A DNA stretch of 64,000 bases from Sphingorhabdus sp. (lineage in GTDB: Bacteria; Pseudomonadota; Alphaproteobacteria; Sphingomonadales; Sphingomonadaceae), in contig NZ_JAAVVZ010000010.1 in the NCBI RefSeq assembly GCF_023910635.1, positions 1 to 64,000 of the forward strand, written 5' to 3'. Position numbers and translations under genes: made by a program. Of the stretch, positions 2,960 through 53,985 are shown in pieces (the stretch's first letter is position 1; the number at the start of each line of letters is the position of its first letter). The notes under the pieces are model-generated. The model was not told where the DNA came from, made no database searches, and worked only from the letters and a program-made list of their open reading frames with translations.

Positions 2960-5900
2960 TCACTCGGCTGGCTGAAGTCCGCCCAGGTCGCCTTTGCTCG
3001 GGGCGTTGTCCGTCGGCTTAGCTGGCTCTGTAACATTCTCTTTATGCTTTGCAGGATCATAGGTCAGCAATCGCGTGCGCAGCCATGGCCCAACGCGCTT
3101 TTCAAACCCGTCGGCCAGGCTGAAACCCGCAGGGACGATCAGCAAGGTCAGCAAGGTCGACACGATCAAGCCGCCGATCACGACCGTGCCCATGGGCGAG
3201 CGCCATTGGCCGTCACCGCCCAATGAAAGCGCGGTGGGGACCATGCCGGCGGTCATGGCAACGGTGGTCATAACGATTGGCTGCGCGCGTTTATGCCCAG
3301 CCTCCATAATCGCTTGGAATTTGGGCACGCCGCGGGCCATTTCCTCAATCGCAAAATCGATCAACAATATGGAGTTTTTCGCGACGATACCAAAGAGCAT
3401 CAAAACGCCGATGAACACCGGCATAGATATTGGCTGGCCAACCAAGGCAAGCGCCAGCAAGCCGCCCAATGGTGCGAGCAACAACGAACCCATGTTGACC
3501 AAAGGCGACATGAAACGATGGTATAAAAGCACCAGCACCGCAAAAACCAACAATGTTCCGGACACCAAGGCGACCATGAAGTCTTTTTGCATTTCCGCCT
3601 CCCATTCCTGAGACCCGAAAGGTGCGCGGGACACGCCGGTGGGCAGATTTTCCATGATGGGAAGCTTGTTAATTTTCTTGTCCGCCTCCGACGAAACGAT
3701 ACCGGGCGCAAAATCCGCGCCAATGAAGATACGGAAATTCTGATTTCGACGTTGAACTGAGGTTGGGCCAGCGCCAAAGCTGATGTCCGCCACGCGGGAC
3801 AGGGGCACAGACCCGCCGCTCGCTAATGGCACGGGCAGGTTGCGGATGACATCCAAGTCCTGACGCGATTCCTTGGCGAGCATGACGCGGATCGGGATTT
3901 GACGATCCGACAGTGAGAATTTTGCGCTATTCTGATCAATATCGCCCAGCGTAGCAACGCGGATTGTCTGGCTGAGCGCCACGGTCGATACGCCAAGCTG
4001 CGACGCAAGGTCGTTGCGCGGCGTTATGATCAATTCGGGACGCTGCAAATCAGCGGAGATACGCGGCGCACGCAATTCGGGCAGCGTCTTCATCTGCTCG
4101 ACCAAAGTTGCCGCTGTCCGGTCAAGTATACTGGGGTCTGATCCTGACAACATGACCGAAACGTCGCGGCCAGAACCACCACCACCACCGTCCGGGCCGT
4201 TAGCCAGAAACGTAACACGTGCGTCCGCGATTTTGGTGAGCAAAGGCGTTAGATCTTCTTCGAATTCCTGACTGGTCCGGGCCCGGTCCTCATGCAAGGT
4301 GATGAAAATGCTGGCGCCGCCTTCGCGCACGCTTTGCAATGCCGTTTTGACTTCAGGCTGCCGCTCGACGATTGCCGCGGCTTCGCTGCTGATCTCACGC
4401 GTGCGCTCCAACGTGGTTCCGGGAACCATTTCGATGCGAATACGGCTGAAATCGGTATTACCATCGGGGAAGAACTGCTTTGGCAGGACGACAAGCAAGA
4501 CGACCGTCAGCGCGAGCGCCAGCGCACCAATGCCCATCATCCAACGGCGGTGACCCAGCGACCAGCGCAAAATTTTCATATATTTGTTGATCCAGCCGGC
4601 CTCGCCATGTTCGGCCATACCGTCGGCTTTCAGGAAATAGGCCGCGATCATTGGCGTAATCATCCGCGCCACGGCAAGGCTCATCAGAACCGAAGCGACC
4701 ACCGTCAGACCGAAATTCTTGAAGAATTGTCCAGCAACGCCGGGCATGAGGCCAACGGGCAGGAACACCGCGACAATCGAAAATGTCGTCGCAACCACCG
4801 CAAGGCCGATTTCGTCGGCGGCATCAATCGACGCCTGATAGGCCGATTTGCCCATCCGCATATGCCGGACGATGTTTTCAATCTCGACAATGGCGTCATC
4901 GACCAATACCCCGGCCACAAGACCAAGCGCCAAGAGCGACATGGTGTTCAGCGTGAAGCCCAAAAGGTCCAAAAACCAGAAAGTTGGAATGGCCGACAAC
5001 GGAATGGCAATCGCCGAAATAATCGTTGCCCGCCAATCGCGCAGGAACAGGAAAACGACGACGATGGCAAGCAACGCGCCTTCGATCATCGCGGCCATGG
5101 AGCTTTTATACTGGCCCTTGGTGTAATCTACGCTGTTGAACAAAGTAACGAATTTGATGCCGGGATTTTCTTTTTCGATTTCCGCGATTTTGACCATCGC
5201 ATCATCGAAGACGGTGACGTCGGACGCGCCCTTGGCGCGCGACATGCTGAAGGTGACGACTTGTTTGCCGCCCGCAAAGGCCATGGCTTTCTGTTCGCTG
5301 AAGCCGTCAGTAACTTCGGCGACATCGGCCAATTTGATGGAGCGGCCGCCGCCAAGGCTAATCTGCGTCTGGCTCAGCGCGAAGGCGTCGGTGGCGTTGC
5401 CAAGCACGCGGACCGATTGGCGTGATCCGGCAATTTGCGACTGACCACCCGATGCGTTGATATTTTGTTGGCGCAGGACCGCGTTAATCGCGCTCGCGCT
5501 TACGCCCAATGATTGCATTTTCGCAGGGTCAAGGACGACGCGGATTTCACGGTTTACGCCGCCATTGCGGCTGACCGAGGCCATGCCTTCGACAGCGAGC
5601 AAGCGGCGTGCAACGCTATCGTCCACGAACCAACTGAGTTGCTCCAGCGTCATGTCGCTGGCTTCGACCGCGAAATAGGCGATTGGTTCGCTGGATGTAG
5701 CAACCTTGAAAATCTGCGGCTCCAATATGCCATCGGGCAGGTCGCTGCGGATTTGGTCGACGGCGTTTTTGACTTCGCTGACTGCGGCATTGATGTCGTC
5801 GCCAATTTCGAATTCGGCGCTGACCGTCGTGTTACCTTCGCTTGAGCTGGCATCAATGTTGCGAACGCCCTGCACACTGCGGATCGCGGATTCGACCTTT

Positions 5901-7466: not shown

Positions 7467-7482
7467 TAGGTCCTGACCCTAA
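7467..7482. repeat. Solo end of the GGTCAGGACC repeat family
   Basis: TAGGTCCTGACCCTAA is identical to the terminal part of the full elements at 44005-44265 and 46455-46656. No partner arm is present within the gap, so this is a solo end or a degraded remnant. Confidence 0.7.
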
Positions 7483-34121: not shown

Positions 34122-34808
34122 ATGGCAGATAATCTTTTCGGTGGTAAGGATTCGGGTCGGACGCTGGCTGGCAAGCAGAAAGTCAAGACCGCAAAGCGGC
34201 GGACGGCCGGGTCGACCCGTTGGCTTGAGCGGCAGTTGAATGACCCTTATGTGAAGCGCGCGCATGGCGAAGGCTATCGCAGCCGTGCGGCCTATAAGCT
34301 GGTTGAGCTCGACGAAAAATTTCATATTTTGCGCGGCAAAAAGGCGGTCGTCGATTTGGGCGTCGCACCCGGCGGATGGGCCCAAGTGGTGCGCCGCCAG
34401 CAACCAAAGGCGGCAATTGTCGGCATTGATCTATTGCCAGTTGACCCGATTGAGGGCGTTATCCTGCTTGAGATGGACTTCATGCATGATAGCGCGCCAG
34501 ACCGGTTGATCGCCGAACTTGGAAGTGCGCCGGACCTGATCTTGTCCGACATGGCGGCCAACACGGTCGGGCATAAACAGACCGACCATTTGCGCACCAT
34601 GGGCCTGGTTGAGGCAGCGGTGGATTTTGCGGTCAAGGTCCTGATGCCTGGTGGTGATTTTGTTGCGAAGGTGTTTGCAGGCGGCACCGATCCAGCGATG
34701 CTGAGCATTCTTAAAACGAACTTTAATACGGTCAAACACGCAAAGCCGCCAGCAAGCCGCAAGGGATCAGTAGAATGGTATGTGATTGCGCAAGGTAAGA
34801 AAGGCTAA
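34122..34808 (+). CDS. rlmE: 23S rRNA (uridine-2'-O)-methyltransferase RlmE
   Basis: A 228-residue SAM-dependent enzyme that methylates U2552 in the A-loop of 23S rRNA. After a basic N-terminal extension comes the catalytic Lys of RSRAAYKLVELDEKF, then the SAM motif VVDLGVAPGGWAQV, the catalytic Asp in LILSDMAANTVGHKQTDH, the Lys in GGDFVAKVFAGG and the Glu in SVEWYVIAQGKKG, giving the K-D-K-E tetrad. It is co-transcribed with ppx. Its TAA stop touches a long hairpin repeat that likely serves as terminator. Confidence 0.95.
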   Translation: MADNLFGGKDSGRTLAGKQKVKTAKRRTAGSTRWLERQLNDPYVKRAHGEGYRSRAAYKLVELDEKFHILRGKKAVVDLGVAPGGWAQVVRRQQPKAAIVGIDLLPVDPIEGVILLEMDFMHDSAPDRLIAELGSAPDLILSDMAANTVGHKQTDHLRTMGLVEAAVDFAVKVLMPGGDFVAKVFAGGTDPAMLSILKTNFNTVKHAKPPASRKGSVEWYVIAQGKKG

Positions 34809-34887
34809 GGTCAGGACCACTTAAATCCACCTTCGCGGCGTCAAAATGGCCTCAAACCGCGAAGGTGGATTTAAGTGGTCCTGACCC
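34809..34887. repeat. Family-1 repeat, short copy: 30-bp perfect hairpin
   Basis: Arms 34809-34838 and 34858-34887 are perfect complements beginning GGTCAGGACCACTTAAATCC. The 19-nt centre joins the left flank of the long copies (GTCAAAATGGC) to their right flank (GGCCTCAAACCG), so this is an internal deletion derivative. It sits between convergent rlmE and the DsbA-family gene and can act as a terminator for both. Confidence 0.92.
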
Positions 34888-35752: not shown

Positions 35753-35775
35753 AATTTAGGTGGTCCTGACCCTAG
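35753..35775. repeat. Solo end of the GGTCAGGACC repeat, overlapping a stop codon
   Basis: AATTTAGGTGGTCCTGACCCTAG. The final CTA is, on the minus strand, the TAG stop of the M48 protease gene (35772-35774). Only one arm is present. Confidence 0.8.
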
Positions 35776-41474: not shown

Positions 41475-43991
41475 ATGGATATCCAGCCCCCACCTGCCGA
41501 AGTGCCGACAACGATCAGTTACCGGCTGAAACGTGACGCCGAAAGTTTTGTGACCCGCTGGCAGGGATATTGGCAAAGCAAGCGTTTTCGTTTGGCCACT
41601 TACGCCGTGGGTGCGCTGTTCGTTCTACTTTTGATATTCTGGGCGCTGTTCGCCCGCAATCTTCCCGATGCAGAGGCGCTGATCGAATATGAATCGCCGC
41701 TGCCAACGGTGGTGCGCGATGTCAACGGAGAGCCGTTCCACAGTTACGCCCGGGAACGTCGCGTTCAATTGGAATATGCGGATTTCCCGAAAACATTGGT
41801 ACATGCCTATCTCGCGGCCGAAGACAAAACCTTTTTCAGCCATGGCGGGATTGACTATCCCGGTATCGCGTCAGCCATTTTCGACAATATTTTTAGCGAC
41901 AAGCGGTCGCGTGGCGCATCGACCATCACACAACAGGTTGCGAAAAACCTGCTGTTGACCAACGAATATAGTTACACCCGCAAGGTCAAGGAGGCGATCT
42001 TGGCCAAGCGCATTGAAAGCGCGCTGACCAAGCCTCAGATTTTGTCGCTCTATCTCAATGAAATCGCGCTTGGGCGCCAATCATTCGGCGTCGAGGCTGC
42101 AGCGCAAGCCTATTTCGGAAAAAGCGTTGATCAGCTTTTACTGCATGAGATGGCCTTTCTGGCCATCTTGCCAAAGGCGCCGGAACGTTATGGGCGTGCC
42201 AAAAATGCTGACCTTGCCATGTCCCGGCGTAATTGGGTGCTGGGCGAAATGCGCGCAAACGGATGGATCACCGATACGCAGCTTGCGACCGCTCGTGCCC
42301 AACCGCTTGGCCTTGTGACGCAACGTGGCACCGGCTATAAAAATATTGGCGGTTATTTTGCAGAAGAAGTGCGTCGCCAGCTTATAGAAAAATTTGGCGA
42401 AACCGACGAAGCGGGCCCCTACAGCGTATATTCAGGCGGACTTTGGGTCCGGTCATCAATGCACCCCCAACATCAACTTGCAGCGACCAAGGCGTTGCGT
42501 GACGGCTTGCTGCGCTACAATGCTGGCAAGGCGTGGAAAGCCAATTTGGGCACAATTGACGTCACCGATGACAAATGGCCATCCCGCTTTGCATCGACCA
42601 ATATTGGCATTGATTATGCGAATTGGCGTGCTGGCGTTGCGCTTGGCAAAGGGCGCGTTGGATTTGCGGATGGTTCGACCGCGCGCCTCGATGGTGGCCC
42701 CGCCGCGATGAAGGCAGGTGACGTGATCGCTGTTGCGCCCAATGGCACGAACAGCTTTGTCGTCCGCAGCGTGCCAGAGGTCGGCGGCGGCATGGTCGTC
42801 CAAGACCCTTTCAACGGACGTGTGCTCGCGGTGCAAGGCGGCTTTGACAATCGTATTTCCAGCTTCAATCGCGCAACACAGGCACAGCGGCAGCCCGGAT
42901 CAACCATTAAACCCTTTGTCTACGCAACCGCGCTCGACAATGGAATGACGCCGACGTCGATTATCGTCGATGGTCCCTATTGCGTCTGGCAAGGTGCGAA
43001 CTTAGGCCAAAAATGCTTTCGCAATTTCACAGGTGGCGGGGCAGGGCCGCAAACCATGCGGTGGGGCCTCGAACAATCACGCAACCTGATGACGGTCCGA
43101 GCGGCCGCTGAATCGGGCATGGACAATGTGACCGACACCTTACGTGACATGTCGATTGGCGATTATCCTGATTATCTTTCCTACGCGTTAGGTGCAGGCG
43201 ACACGACAGTGTTGAAGATGGTCAACGCCTATTCGATGCTGGTCAATCACGGACGTGAATTAAAGCCGACATTCATTGATTTTGCGCAAAATCGCAAAGG
43301 CAAGGTTATTTGGCCGGCCAAGTGGAAACCCTGCACGGGTTGCCGCGCGCCCGATTGGAATGGCAGGCCAATGCCGCGCTTCACACCTGCGGGCAAGCAA
43401 GTCATGGACCCCATCACGGCGTATCAAGTCGTGCATATGTTGGAAGGCGTGGTACAACGCGGCACCGCCGTTACATTGCGCGAGCTCGACCGACCATTGT
43501 TCGGCAAAACCGGAACAACCACTGGCCCGACAAATGTCTGGTTCATCGGCGGATCACCCAATTTAGTAGCTGGTCTCTATTTGGGCTTTGACCAACCGCG
43601 CAACATGGGTGGCTATGCGCAGGGAAGCTCACTTGCTGCGCCCATTTTCAAACAGTTCGCACGCACAGCGATGGCCGATATGCCTAAGACACCGTTCATC
43701 GCGCCGGCCGGAACGCGGCTTGTCCGCGTGGATCGCAGGAGTGGCAAGCGCGTCTATGGAGCCTGGCCGAGTGATGACCCGCTAAGCGCGGTGATATGGG
43801 AGGCGTTCAAGGCCGAAACGGAGCCAAAGCGCTCTATCCGTCAGGAAGAACTCGCCGCGCGGGGCGACAAGCCAAAGAAAGCAACTGAAACGCAGTCTGA
43901 TGGTGCTGCCGGCGCGGCCAACGCCCCAAGCGCAAGCGTCGGGACAAAGCGCGACCAGGAGTTTATCCAGCAAGAGGGCGGAATTTATTAG
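41475..43991 (+). CDS. mrcA: Penicillin-binding protein 1A (bifunctional glycosyltransferase/transpeptidase)
   Basis: An 838-residue class A PBP. After a short cytoplasmic part and one membrane anchor (LATYAVGALFVLLLIFWALFA), the glycosyltransferase domain has catalytic E116 in AAEDKTFFSHGG, plus RGASTITQQVAKNLLL. An OB/linker domain follows. The transpeptidase has S476 in RQPGSTIKPF, SxN in QSRNLM and KTG in LFGKTGTTTGPTNVWF. The C-terminal tail is disordered (Lys/Ala/Ser-rich). Function: polymerises and crosslinks peptidoglycan outside the inner membrane. The TAG stop (43989-43991) runs directly into a GGTCAGGACC repeat. Confidence 0.95.
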   Translation: MDIQPPPAEVPTTISYRLKRDAESFVTRWQGYWQSKRFRLATYAVGALFVLLLIFWALFARNLPDAEALIEYESPLPTVVRDVNGEPFHSYARERRVQLEYADFPKTLVHAYLAAEDKTFFSHGGIDYPGIASAIFDNIFSDKRSRGASTITQQVAKNLLLTNEYSYTRKVKEAILAKRIESALTKPQILSLYLNEIALGRQSFGVEAAAQAYFGKSVDQLLLHEMAFLAILPKAPERYGRAKNADLAMSRRNWVLGEMRANGWITDTQLATARAQPLGLVTQRGTGYKNIGGYFAEEVRRQLIEKFGETDEAGPYSVYSGGLWVRSSMHPQHQLAATKALRDGLLRYNAGKAWKANLGTIDVTDDKWPSRFASTNIGIDYANWRAGVALGKGRVGFADGSTARLDGGPAAMKAGDVIAVAPNGTNSFVVRSVPEVGGGMVVQDPFNGRVLAVQGGFDNRISSFNRATQAQRQPGSTIKPFVYATALDNGMTPTSIIVDGPYCVWQGANLGQKCFRNFTGGGAGPQTMRWGLEQSRNLMTVRAAAESGMDNVTDTLRDMSIGDYPDYLSYALGAGDTTVLKMVNAYSMLVNHGRELKPTFIDFAQNRKGKVIWPAKWKPCTGCRAPDWNGRPMPRFTPAGKQVMDPITAYQVVHMLEGVVQRGTAVTLRELDRPLFGKTGTTTGPTNVWFIGGSPNLVAGLYLGFDQPRNMGGYAQGSSLAAPIFKQFARTAMADMPKTPFIAPAGTRLVRVDRRSGKRVYGAWPSDDPLSAVIWEAFKAETEPKRSIRQEELAARGDKPKKATETQSDGAAGAANAPSASVGTKRDQEFIQQEGGIY

Positions 43992-44374
43992 GTCAGGACC
44001 CTGGGGTCAGGACCACTTAAATCCACCTTCGCGGCGTCAAAATGGCAAAGATATCGAAGGAAAATGTCCGCCGCAGGCAGTCATTCTGCCTGCAAGGTCA
44101 TTTTGTTTCGAGATCGAAGCCATTTTGACGTCCTTCGGATTTGACCCATATTGTCCATTGCCACGTTGGCAAAGCTAGACTTAGAACCACTAAGTCCTGC
44201 GCTTACCGCCTGGCACTGAACAGTATGGCCTCAAACCGCGAAGGTGGATTTAAGTGGTCCTGACCCTAATAGATTTTGTGCTGCGGCGGATAACTCTGGT
44301 CATCGCTGCCTTTGACTTGAGCGTCCAATCAGCTAAAGGCCGCGGCTGACCTATTCATTCCCTTGGAGTTTCTT
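43992..44374. other. Gap between PBP1A and prfB, mostly a family-1 repeat
   Basis: 383 bases. 43991-44002 hold an extra GGTCAGGACCCT fragment, 44005-44265 the long family-1 element, and 44266-44374 the prfB leader with its ribosome binding site TTGGAG. No ORF. Confidence 0.7.
44005..44265. repeat. Family-1 repeat, long copy with three-way-junction fold
   Basis: 261 bp. Terminal arms 44005-44034 and 44236-44265 are perfect 30-bp complements beginning GGTCAGGACCACTTAAATCC. Branch I: CGTCAAAATGG (44035-44045) with CCATTTTGACG (44120-44130), enclosing a further hairpin GCAGGCAG-tcatt-CTGCCTGC. Branch II: CCATATTGT (44146-44154) with ACAGTATGG (44220-44228), inside which GACTTAG-aacca-CTAAGTC pairs perfectly. 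Confidence 0.92.
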
Positions 44375-45502
44375 ATGCGCGCCGACGCAGAAGGCTATGT
44401 TGCCCGCATTGATGCCGCCCTCAACCTCGTCAAGATGTCGCTTGACTGGGATCGCGCTTTACGTCGCTTGGATGAACTGAATGCCAAGGTTGAGGACCCG
44501 ACCTTGTGGGATAATCCCAAGGCCGCCGAAGAAGTTATGCGCGAACGCCGCCGGTTGGATGCGGCCATTGGGACTGTGCGCGAAATCGACGCCGATAAGG
44601 CGGGCACGGTTGAGTTAATCGAGCTTGCCGAGATGGAAGGCGACGCCGAGTTGGGCGATGAAGGCGCCGCCGCATTGAAAGCATTGGCAGACCGTGCCGA
44701 CCGCGACAAGGTCTCTGCATTGCTGTCGGGCGAAGCAGACAGCAACGACACCTTCATTGAAATTCATGCGGGCGCGGGTGGCACCGAGAGCCAGGATTGG
44801 GCCGAAATGCTTCAGCGCATGTATTATCGCTGGGCCGAACAACGCGGGTATAAGGTCGAAATGGTCGATTATCAGGCAGGTGATCAGGCAGGCATCAAAT
44901 CCGCCACCCTGCTGGTGAAAGGCGAAAATGCCTATGGCTATGCCAAGACCGAAAGCGGCGTCCACCGTTTGGTCCGTATTTCACCTTATGACAGCGCGGC
45001 AAAGCGGCATACGAGCTTTTCAAGCGTCTGGGTGTATCCGGTCATCGACGACAATATCGACATTGAAATCAACGAAGGCGATTTAAAGATCGATACTTAC
45101 CGCGCGTCCGGCGCAGGCGGGCAGCACGTTAACACGACGGACTCAGCCGTTCGTATCACGCACAAACCATCGGGCATCGTCGTTGCCAGCCAGAACGACC
45201 GCAGCCAGCACAAAAACCGCGCAACCGCGATGGGCATGTTGAAGGCACGACTATACGAAGCCGAACTGCGCAAGCGCGAAGAGGTCGCGAGCGGCGAATA
45301 TGCGGCCAAGACCGAAATCGGTTGGGGCCACCAGATCCGCTCCTACGTGCTTCAACCCTATCAAATGGTCAAAGACCTGCGCACTGGCGTCACGTCGCCT
45401 ACACCCGGCGACGTGCTCGACGGCGACCTAGACAATTTCATCGCCGCCGCATTGGCCCAGCGGGTAACAGGTGAAGCGGTTGCAGTTGAGGATGTGGATT
45501 AA
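44375..45502 (+). CDS. prfB: Peptide chain release factor 2
   Basis: A 375-residue class I release factor that reads UGA/UAA and triggers peptidyl-tRNA hydrolysis. GGQ is at residues 248-250 in [21 protein letters not shown]. The RF2-type recognition region contains [19 protein letters not shown], where E. coli has the SPF tripeptide. The N-terminal helical domain starts [19 protein letters not shown] 44375 follows GGAG at 7 nt; an upstream in-frame TTG (44363) is less likely. The frame is continuous, so the programmed +1 frameshift seen in many bacterial prfB genes is absent here. Confidence 0.95.
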
Positions 45503-45611
45503 ATTTCTGTAATTAAATATTTAAATACAATGATGCGCGATTGCCCCAATTCTTCTTCGCGCGTTTGAAGGTTTTGGGAAAATAGTTTTGCGGTTATATC
45601 GCTCGGGATAA

Positions 45612-46394
45612 TCAACCCCCTGGCGAAGCCGCGCTTCCTGCTAGCAATCCGCCGTCCAAATGTATTTCGCTGCCGGTCATATAGCTTGCATCGTCTGACG
45701 CTAGCAAAAGGGCGATGGCGGCGACTTCGTCGACTGTGCCGAAACGTTTGAGCGGCGTATCTGCCACCATCGCCGCCATACGGGCGTCGCGGTCGGGGCC
45801 GTTGCCGATCATCGCCTCCCACATCGGCGTGAGGATCGCGGCGGGGTGGATCGAGTTGCAACGGATTTTCAGTCCTTGGCCAGCGCAGTATAAAGCGACC
45901 GATTTTGTGTGATTGCGGATTGCGGCCTTGGACGAGGCGTACGCCGCCGCGCCCGGTATACCGACAAGGCCGGAGCGCGACGACATGTTGATGATCGACC
46001 CTGCGCGCTTTTGACGCATTGCCCCAATCGCATAACGGCACCCCAAGAATGTCCCGTCCAGATTGACAGCGTGCACTCGGCGCCACTCGCCCAACGTTGC
46101 GTGTTCAGGGTCGTGCGGGCCGGGGTTTTCTTCGAAACCTGTTATGCCGGCATTGTTGACCACAATATCCATTTGGGGATGTTCTGCGGCGAGGCTCTCC
46201 CAATCTTTCTCCGACGAGACATCGAGTTTGATAAATACGCCGCCGATTTCGGCTGCAAGCTCAGTCCCATTTTCGGCGTCAATGTCGGCGATAACAATTT
46301 GCGCACCCTCCGCCGCAAAGCATCGCACGATTGCGGCCCCGATACCGCGCGCGCCGCCCGTGATAAGGGCCGATTTATCCTGTAATTTGGGCAT
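45612..46394 (-). CDS. SDR family NAD(P)-dependent oxidoreductase
   Basis: A 260-residue classical short-chain dehydrogenase. The cofactor motif is [11 protein letters not shown] (residues 12-22), with Asp in VIADIDAE favouring NAD. NNAG occurs in [11 protein letters not shown], the catalytic Ser in [11 protein letters not shown] and YxxxK in [12 protein letters not shown]. The C-terminus is the usual [13 protein letters not shown]. The pattern resembles 3-alpha/20-beta-hydroxysteroid and glucose dehydrogenases; substrate unknown. It stands alone. A family-1 repeat (46455-46656) lies just upstream, within about 60 bp of its start, so it may carry or disturb the promoter. Confidence 0.88.
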
Positions 46395-46454
46395 AGGTTC
46401 TTCCTGAAATATTTTGCAACGCGTTCGTCATGCCTGTGTGGCTGTCTATCTTAG

Positions 46455-46656
46455 GGTCAGGACCACTTAAATCCACCATCGCGGCGTCAAAATGGCAAAG
46501 ATATCGAAGCCATTTTGGCGTCCGGAGGATTTGACCCATACTGTCCATTGCCGCGTTGGCAAGCTTGGACTTAGAACCACTAAGCCCTGCGCTTTGCCGC
46601 CTTGCACTGAACAGTATGGCCTCAAACCGCGAAGGTGGATTTAATAGGTCCTGACC
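46455..46656. repeat. Family-1 repeat, intermediate copy with three-way-junction fold
   Basis: 202 bp. Arms 46455-46484 and 46627-46656 pair with three or so mismatches. Branch I: CGTCAAAATGG (46485-46495) with CCATTTTGGCG (46510-46520), 14-nt loop. Branch II: CCATACTGT (46536-46544) with ACAGTATGG (46611-46619), nine perfect pairs, enclosing GGCAAGC / GCTTTGCC and GACTTAG-aacca-CTAAG. It is flanked by TTAG on the left and CTAG on the right. Confidence 0.92.
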
Positions 46657-46689
46657 CTAGAATGGATAAATGGACCCTGAAACAAGTTC

Positions 46690-46749
46690 AGGGTGACGGC
46701 ATTGCTTCTAGGGTGACGGGATTGTTTCGAGGGTGACGGGAGTAGGGCG
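46690..46749 (+). repeat. Three 20-bp imperfect tandem repeats (AGGGTGACGG...)
   Basis: Units 46690-46709, 46710-46729 and 46730-46749 share AGGGTGACGG at the start and diverge towards the end. The first fuses with the TTCAGGGTGACG arm of a short palindrome. Confidence 0.75.
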
Positions 46750-46765
46750 TCGTTTCGTATACGCA

Positions 46766-47227
46766 TCACCCACGCGTCAGCGCATCAATCGCGCCTTGCA
46801 GGATGAACGCTGCTGCGCCGCTGTCGATTTTTTCTGCGCGTTTGGCGCGGCTCATGTCGGCGGCGATCATGTCGCGTTCAACGGCTTGGGTCGACCAACG
46901 TTCGTCACGCAGCAAAATTGGAAGGCCCAGATCTGCGATATTTTTCGCAAAGGCGCGGCTGGACTGGCTTCGCGGGCTTTCGCTGCCATCCATATTCAAC
47001 GGCAAGCCGATCACAATGCCGCGCGTTGGCCGCGTCGCGATAGCGGCCTTTAATTCGAATTTATCCTGCGTAAACTTGGCGCGTTTGATGAGGTCAGCGG
47101 GCGAGGCGAAGGTCCAGCCGGCATCACAAAATGCCGTGCCAATGGTTTTGCTGCCGACATCAAGCCCGATTAAAACGCCGCCGTCTGGCAGTTGATCGCG
47201 GAAGCTGGCAACCGATTCAAAAATCAT
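46766..47227 (-). CDS. ruvX: Putative pre-16S rRNA nuclease / Holliday junction resolvase YqgF (RuvX)
   Basis: A 153-residue RNase H-fold protein. The first acidic residue is in [17 protein letters not shown], the second region is [19 protein letters not shown], and the ending motifs are [15 protein letters not shown] and the Asp/Ser pocket of [16 protein letters not shown]. The family matures the 5' end of 16S rRNA and is often annotated as a Holliday-junction resolvase. ATG 47227 overlaps the stop of the upstream DUF3089 gene (ATGA), so translation is coupled; the longer start at 47254 would overlap it by 30 nt. Confidence 0.92.
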
Positions 47228-48333
47228 TTCTGCAGATATTTCTGCAAGCGCCATGTCGCATCCGCCCGCACATTGGCCCAGAATAAAGGGAAATCATATA
47301 CATGGTAATTGTTGCCGGGCAGGACATAGGGTCCAATCTCTGGCGGATCGCCAATCAGCAGAAACCCCTTGCCATCGCATCGTGCCGGCACGGCACCAAC
47401 AATCATTTCGCCGGTTTCTAACTTATCATTGGGCTTTAATGTGCCCAAATTCGCCTCCATCAACGCAGTAGGCTCCGCACCGCCATTTAACGGGTTGGTA
47501 CATAGCATCGGCGTGTCCTTGCGCGGCGTGCCGTCAAATCCGGTTGTGGCGTTATAGACTTTGACGATCCGGTCATATTCGGCAGGCTCGGCAAAGCTTT
47601 GCCACGCCATGATGCAGCCGGTGTCATCGGGACCAGCGCAAGCAGGAAAGCCCATTTGTGGCATATCAGCGGTTATCGATATCGGCCATCCAACGGCGTA
47701 TACGGCGACAATGCGTTTCGCGATTGGCTTGCCCGCCACGCGGTCCTTAAGCAAATTTGTAAGGTGCAGCGCGCCTTGGCTATGCCCGGCCAATATGATC
47801 GGGCGGTCTTTTTGGACCTTCGCTGCAAATTCATCAAAGGCCAAGAGCACATCTTGATAAGCGGCATCCAGCGCTTGCTGGCCCTCCGGCTTGGTGGTCA
47901 GAAATGCGCCAATCGCTGCCTGACGGTAACGCGGTGCCCACATCTCGCCTGCACTGGCGAGCGGCGAAGCAAGGCCGCGCAGGAACATGCGCGCACGGTC
48001 CTGTGATTCTGCGTCATTTAAGGGCGCGTTCCAATAATCCCTGCCGATATAGGATGTGGGATGCACAAAAAATATCGCGGCAGAACCGGGTATTTCGGGC
48101 TTCGCCGCGCCGGTCGGTAACCAGTCCGCAGGATTGCCCGTTTTGCCGGGACGCGCAAACCACATGTCGTTGCCTGCATATTTGCTGGGTTCAAAGGCCG
48201 GTTGCTGTTCAAACTTGCCCGTCGGGACAAAGGCAAGCTCCGTCAGCTCGCTTTCATAGATACGAATGACAAAGCCACCCGCAATGACGAGAACGATAAG
48301 CGCTGCGACGATATAAAGAAATTTACGTGCCAA
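47224..48333 (-). CDS. DUF3089 alpha/beta-hydrolase-like protein
   Basis: A 369-residue protein with one N-terminal membrane anchor ([21 protein letters not shown]) and a DUF3089 domain. Landmarks are [21 protein letters not shown], the nucleophile elbow [16 protein letters not shown] with the Ser of GHSQG, and [17 protein letters not shown]3089 proteins are lipase-like and of unknown substrate; the anchor suggests periplasmic action. It is transcribed with ruvX. Upstream, 217 bp separate it from the divergent ffs-dnaX locus. Confidence 0.85.
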
Positions 48334-53959: not shown

Positions 53960-53985
53960 GCGGATTTAATAGGTCCTGACCCTAA
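53960..53985. repeat. Solo end of the GGTCAGGACC repeat
   Basis: GCGGATTTAATAGGTCCTGA, continuing CCCTAA: the right end of family 1 including the GGATTTAA stretch of its arm. No left arm nearby. Confidence 0.8.

Follow-up and report, generated by a model that had tools for sequence, protein, structure and literature searches.

The window analysed here, a stretch of 64,000 nucleotides from a Sphingorhabdus sp. genome, includes two copies of a repeat with inverted ends of about 30 bp, and this locus raises the questions of what kind of element the repeat is and of how it was dispersed. A preliminary description made from the sequence alone had located the copies at 44005-44265 and 46455-46656, each with an outer stem and internal branches, and had considered a MITE-like or REP-like element moved by an enzyme encoded elsewhere, or a structured RNA. 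The positions, the outer stem and the branches were found as described. The results presented below characterize the repeat as a gene-less parasitic DNA element, most likely copied by an enzyme from a larger transposon that shares its ends. It is very probably a non-autonomous MITE, moved in trans by the IS5-family, IS427-group DDE transposase of an insertion sequence (IS) that has these ends.

The features identified in the window are listed in Table 1. The inverted ends of about 30 bp are present in both copies, and the outer stem that they form consists of 28 pairs in the alignment. Inside this stem, branch I is made by pairing of CGTCAAAATGG with CCATTTTGACG, and branch II by pairing of CCATAYTGT with ACAGTATGG. 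The inner part of branch I is absent from copy 2, as though a deletion had occurred between direct repeats of ATCGAAG. The element had been described as lacking an ORF of its own, and among the ORFs of at least 80 amino acids only one, of 92 amino acids, enters copy 1, from the left. Beyond the two copies reported earlier, the window includes an 80-bp copy as well as solo ends at three places (near 7470, 35763, and 53973).

Table 1. MITE copies, their structural parts and solo ends in the 64-kb window. The bounds of copies 1 and 2 do not include the duplicated TA.
Feature	Coordinates	Strand	Remarks
MITE copy 1, full form, predicted three-way junction	44004..44266	+	263 bp
TA duplication of copy 1	44267-44268 (right TA)		left TA reads TG
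Outer stem, left arm of copy 1 (terminal inverted repeat)	44003..44032	+	alignment columns 1-30; first base in flank
Outer stem, right arm of copy 1 (terminal inverted repeat)	44238..44267	+	alignment columns 237-266; last base in flank
Branch I, copy 1	44033..44132	+	alignment columns 31-131
Branch II, copy 1	44137..44237	+	alignment columns 136-236
MITE copy 2	46454..46657	+	204 bp; TA at 46452-46453 and 46658-46659
Third MITE copy, outer-stem-only form	34808..34887	+	80 bp; insertion site CTAA
MITE remnant	35759..35772	+	14 bp between TAs 35757-35758 and 35773-35774
Solo MITE end GGTCCTGACCC	7469..7479	+	11 bp, TA each side
Solo right end of MITE, TA subtype	53962..53982	+	TA directly after

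The proposal that the repeat is dispersed was borne out when the genome and its relatives were searched. When up to one mismatch was allowed, the end pattern GGTCAGGACCNNNTWAATCC gave 178 matches in the 3.05-Mb genome (90 plus 88) versus 0 for the reversed pattern used as control, and long DNA matches number at least 40 (40 of the 139 candidates scored). A DNA search of 41 genomes, this one included, found matches in 18, all belonging to one genus, which is Sphingorhabdus judging by the 22 named loci of the adjacent penicillin-binding protein gene, several of them carrying that name. The terminal inverted repeat (TIR) pattern is present in 23 of 45 genomes of the genus. Across the order, a shorter version of it has matches in 10 of 396 genomes, single ones being possibly fortuitous. 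Plasmid and phage collections contained no match to the element; among viral contigs a single one carries one MITE end, and a scan of the viral contigs using an IS630 fragment revealed nothing further. The copies retrieved, a subset of those existing, consisted of 51 distinct ones from this genome and 25 from others. The length is 263 bp in 31 of the former and 18 of the latter, the rest ranging from 80 to 277 bp; all 76 are between 80 and 264 bp with the exception of the one of 277 bp. Their location is mostly intergenic, with 22 of 30 copies outside genes as defined by crude ORF calls. Three loci of relatives (L070, L072, and L086) harbor divergent full-form copies with 78-81% identity to copy 1 in which the pairing is largely kept. 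A possible second subfamily is represented by a diverged MITE of 181 bp (L090, 1842-2022), in which the ends are AATTAAATCCACTTTCGCGG and the branch is a different one.

The flanks of the copies point to a specific target. TA was found on both sides of 58 of 74 distinct elements and was missing on one side of the other 16, in a count that includes a few loci retrieved with a pattern containing one TA; in 53 of the 58 the flanks are YTA/TAR. Empty sites, which the preliminary description had proposed to look for, are present at 34.8 and 35.76 kb, together with TA duplication at the filled loci: the orthologous empty sites consist of a single YTAR, and the filled sites of the element between two TAs. 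At the 34.8-kb site, 13 other records include both flanks. Six of them are exactly empty, with a YTAR-like sequence and no gap; a full element is present in one (L123), the junction is 4 bases shorter in four, and the sequence is unrelated in two. The empty records read GGGCTAATCAGCC or similar (CTAG, CTGA), and the filled ones read C-TA or T-TA, element, TA-ATCAGCC, the left junction in the window being CTAAGG instead of CTAGGG. The end subtypes at this site differ, since both arms of the window copy (34808-34887) are of the AC type and both arms of the L123 copy (4064-4328) are of the TA type, a difference due either to two insertions at one TA or to a concerted change of both arms. At the 35.76-kb site the window, L122, and L123 have in common a remnant of 14 bp bordered by TA or TA-like pairs (the left one is TGA in L123), and seven records without the remnant have only TTAGC or TTAAC. 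The flanks of the 44.0-kb site are more diverged, and 11-bp remnants are kept there in L123 and L126.

Two insertions (L123, 4063-4329, and L149, 1480-2370) split apparent intrinsic terminator hairpins in the loop. A preference for hairpin (terminator) targets was considered because the 34.8-kb site and L149 suggested it, and it was rejected: over 58 sites the mean number of symmetric matches was 2.90 of 11, compared to 2.85 in shuffles (p = 0.40).

In the mechanism that we propose, an IS with ends TAGGSTCAGGACCTATTAAAT would supply the IS427-group transposase in trans, and this enzyme would bind the inverted ends, insert the element at YTAR and duplicate the TA. An order-wide search for the ends led to two loci, L149 and L148, with IS5-family ISs whose ORF1 matches PF13340; the match of ORF1 alone to the IS5-family model NF033580 is below the cut-off. 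Complete ISs with both ends, 839 to 886 bp in length including the TAs, were found in 8 of the 32 loci scanned (L148, L149, and L174-L203). Of the other 24 loci, 13 have at least one end but no pair at IS distance (in one of them the end is that of the MITE), and 11 have no ends. The ends of the eight ISs are TAGG[G/C]TC[A/C][A/G]GA, and the base preceding TA is a Y (C or T) at all 16 IS ends, the TA itself being part of the search pattern. Their left inverted repeats (IRLs) match the TA subtype of the MITE at 16 to 21 of 21 bases; the best one, from L149, matches at 21 of 21 bases the TA subtype and at 19 of 21 the AC subtype, to which copy 1 belongs. The right inverted repeat of the L181 IS matches the MITE at 23 of 26 bases, TTAAATCCACC included. 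PF13340 was detected in both first ORFs checked as well as in that of this genome's own IS, and PF01609 in both second ORFs checked. With DUF4096 and DDE ORFs, a size of about 850 bp, and TA flanks at filled sites that agree with a 2-bp duplication, the candidate helper ISs fit the IS5/IS427 group. The IS427-group ISs of Paracoccus are 832 to 865 bp long, nine of ten table rows give a 2-bp direct repeat and the tenth gives 4 bp, and the group has two overlapping ORFs (PMC3281130).

It is because end, target and duplication agree that the helper is assigned to the IS427 group. We infer that IS427-group transposases act on the MITE, and likewise when they do so. The preliminary idea of a MITE-like element moved by an enzyme encoded elsewhere is supported by the copy number, the TA duplication, the empty sites, and the existence of ISs with the same ends. 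The transposase gene with matching ends that the same description had suggested to look for was found in the order, with identities of up to 21 of 21 bases, but in the genome itself the best value is 17 of 21. The IRL pattern revealed no exact match at an IS end in this draft genome; its sole match is the closest IS427-type copy, on contig C31, which has those 17 bases, the end-by-end comparison having left aside 12 more distant protein matches. Beyond the ends, the interior of copy 1 does not resemble any of the eight ISs (best E value, 1.0); MITEs and ISs are reported often to have only their ends in common (PMC3852290). A search of the genus with the helper ORF1 gave matches in 18 of 45 genomes, and there is no co-occurrence with the MITE, as the helper-like protein is encoded in 7 of 23 TIR-positive versus 11 of 22 TIR-negative genomes. 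Possibly the helper was lost while the MITE persisted, or it lies in parts that the draft assemblies do not include.

Other ISs were seen next to copies of the repeat. An IS of about 845 bp shares TA with the MITE at two loci (L008 and L012, 654-1500); it is a distant IS427-type element with 40% protein identity to the helper ORF1 query. A 1029-bp block adjoins MITEs in L024 and L027 near position 1500, and an IS630 lies within a solo MITE end in L103 near 967. The edges of the MITE, which often carry CTAG, may be targets for ISs. In a genome of another family (G070), five loci were read (L146, L155, L161, L166, and L171), and in each the same end is no more than about 70 bases away from the end of a contig, as expected of a multi-copy IS that breaks the assembly.

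Two other mobilizing systems were weighed against the IS427-group transposase. The element is hairpin-rich, dispersed and mostly intergenic, and its motif resembles REP-type sequences, so that mobilization by a RAYT (Y1 HUH) transposase recognizing the foot of the hairpin, as for a REP/BIME-like element, could be considered. One genome of the genus (G049) indeed combines a Y1 match with two TIR matches, one forward and the other reverse, that span 267 bp. However, PF01797 is absent from this genome, though it was matched in 5 of 14 control genomes, and it was found in only 4 of the 45 genomes of the genus, three of which have no TIR-pattern match; it is missing from 22 of the 23 TIR-positive ones. 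The TA duplication seen by comparison with empty sites also argues against mobilization by RAYT, and the REP-like alternative raised in the preliminary description is exceedingly improbable. A MITE of the IS630/Tc1-mariner type, the class to which Correia elements are thought to belong, would likewise generate a TA duplication. Both this duplication and the YTAR target fit such an origin, and the genome has IS630-type ISs of two kinds (8 matches), but the ends of both kinds are unrelated to those of the repeat (TAGAGC.. and TACCAA..), PF13358 was found in 5 of the 45 genus genomes versus 23 for the TIR pattern, and the ends that do match are those of IS427-group ISs. We regard an IS630-type origin as very unlikely. 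The surveys of PF01797 and PF13358 thus produced no fitting helper. An interval of 1434 bp on contig C12 (L089, 1043-2477), bounded by matching ends, was evaluated as an autonomous element and discarded, since it is an IS630-family IS inside a MITE copy, inserted at a TA within branch II.

The remaining alternative, that the repeat is kept for a function as a structured RNA or cis-regulatory element with a selected fold, concerns the nature of the fold. A three-way junction, as described earlier, is the predicted RNA fold of both copies, with a stability far beyond that of shuffled sequence: -159.1 kcal/mol for copy 1 (z = -17.3) and -106.9 kcal/mol for copy 2 (z = -12.0), with 0 of 200 shuffles as good in each case. 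When copy 1 was folded as DNA the z value was -16.4. Covariation, for which an analysis had been recommended, was assessed in an alignment of 48 full-length copies, 30 from this genome and 18 from the 28 loci of relatives, shorter and partial copies being excluded. The arms do covary: 98.5% of the cells are paired, and both sides changed in 26 of 102 pairs, compared to 8.8 (sd 1.6) in shuffles and 4 to 6 in slid controls, counts that ignore the tree.

Stability, pairing and two-sided changes are all compatible with an RNA, and so is a weak tendency of the minor pair types toward G·T, 28 versus 16 over a symmetric set of 109 pairs (folds of both strands plus 1x1 loops) and 24 versus 13 over a shared set of the 90 pairs predicted on both strands. 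This tendency, however, is not significant (p = 0.096, symmetric set), and G·T and A·C cells are equally frequent, with 214 and 211 in the symmetric set, which has four consensus pairs of each kind, and 31 and 29 in the shared set. The reverse strand folds equally well (-135.3 versus -134.5). An apparent excess of G·T (214 versus 31 cells) was dismissed as an artefact of folding one strand, as it was gone once both-strand pairs and 1x1 loops were used. Orientation relative to co-oriented flanking genes is balanced: among the 22 copies that are intergenic by crude ORF calls, 8 point the same way as these genes and 7 the opposite way. The presence of the element varies between close relatives. 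At the gathering score no Rfam model matched the element in the regions searched (window positions 43000-47500, L072, and L123); sub-threshold matches in the window region were to three microRNA families on copy 1 and one viral pseudoknot outside it, and in L072 and L123 there was only tRNA, outside the element. The equal frequency of G·T and A·C and the lack of a preferred orientation to genes give no support to an RNA function, which we consider highly improbable. A T/C difference in branch II had been put forward as a sign of a selected fold. The difference is real, the pair at columns 150/222 being T-A in 19, C-G in 15, T.G in 8, and C.A in 6 of the 48 copies, but the argument drawn from it fails because the mismatch that would disrupt pairing in an RNA occurs almost as often as the wobble.

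Mixed arms were found in the TIR of 6 of 48 copies (columns 13-14 with 253-254; one is still paired by wobble) and in branch II of 15 of 48, some with wobbles. The arms would be kept complementary through shared descent and probably also because one arm templates repair of the other or subfamilies recombine. A process that preserves pairing may thus operate on the DNA, be it templated repair of the arms, subfamily recombination, or selection on the DNA fold. That the branched fold itself works as DNA, either as a cruciform or single-stranded DNA at replication forks that promotes IS427-type mobilization or by letting one arm template the repair of the other, is an unlikely proposition; if true, it would explain strong covariation of the arms without strand bias in branches that the transposase need not read.

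The fold stems from a nested palindromic body, and hairpin-driven slippage probably shortens the copies, giving forms of 204, 158, and 80 bp and in the end remnants of 11 to 21 bp. Judged by their junctions, the remnants and most of the shorter forms are explicable by deletion across the hairpins, from one short direct repeat to the other. One identical junction lacking branch I occurs at seven loci and has no evident direct repeat. This points to common descent, and branch I therefore looks dispensable for movement. The outer-only form, known from three loci of two genomes, has its junction between direct repeats and may have arisen repeatedly.

The repeat thus has the attributes of a MITE: it is short, has no transposase ORF, includes TIRs, is present in dispersed copies with a target site duplication and empty sites, and has ends matching those of an IS found in the order. 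A full-text literature search for GGTCAGGACC gave no earlier description of the repeat among the matches listed, as judged by title, and in a second search none of the papers listed contains the name Sphingorhabdus. The present analysis assigns a repeat family of this genus to a probable helper transposase group and documents a series from the full element to an 11-bp scar at orthologous sites. It also indicates that strand symmetry should be tested before covariation in a MITE is read as selection on an RNA.

A MITE with an IS5-family helper is an already familiar kind of element, for which BrickBuilt of Porphyromonas gingivalis and ATR of Neisseria are precedents. Both were tied to IS5-family ISs through their TIRs (PMC4596501), and like the Sphingorhabdus repeat they are non-autonomous repeats whose helper was assigned by TIR match. 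BrickBuilt differs in having a minisatellite body and target site duplications of varying length, instead of a branched palindromic body and duplication of TA. MITEAba12 of Acinetobacter, with ISAba12 as helper, is likewise short and non-coding and was connected to its helper by TIR match, but it has a 9-bp duplication and a length of 111 to 114 bp (PMC6382973), compared to 2 bp (TA) and mostly 263 bp, plus shorter forms, in this case. Another alphaproteobacterial MITE with a long stem-loop fold, MITEPye1 of Paracoccus yeei, has IS1182 as its proposed helper family and 1 to 3 chromosomal copies (PMC11578231), whereas dozens of copies are found here. Close to the repeat, too, is the IS427 group itself, which includes IS1248 and ISPpa2 of Paracoccus (PMC3281130): the repeat resembles the IS427-type ISs of the Sphingomonadales in ends and TA/YTAR target, and the latter have the size and the two-ORF layout of the group. 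Unlike those ISs, the repeat has no ORF, and it has in common with them about 21 terminal bases (23 of 26 with the L181 IS) and nothing inside.
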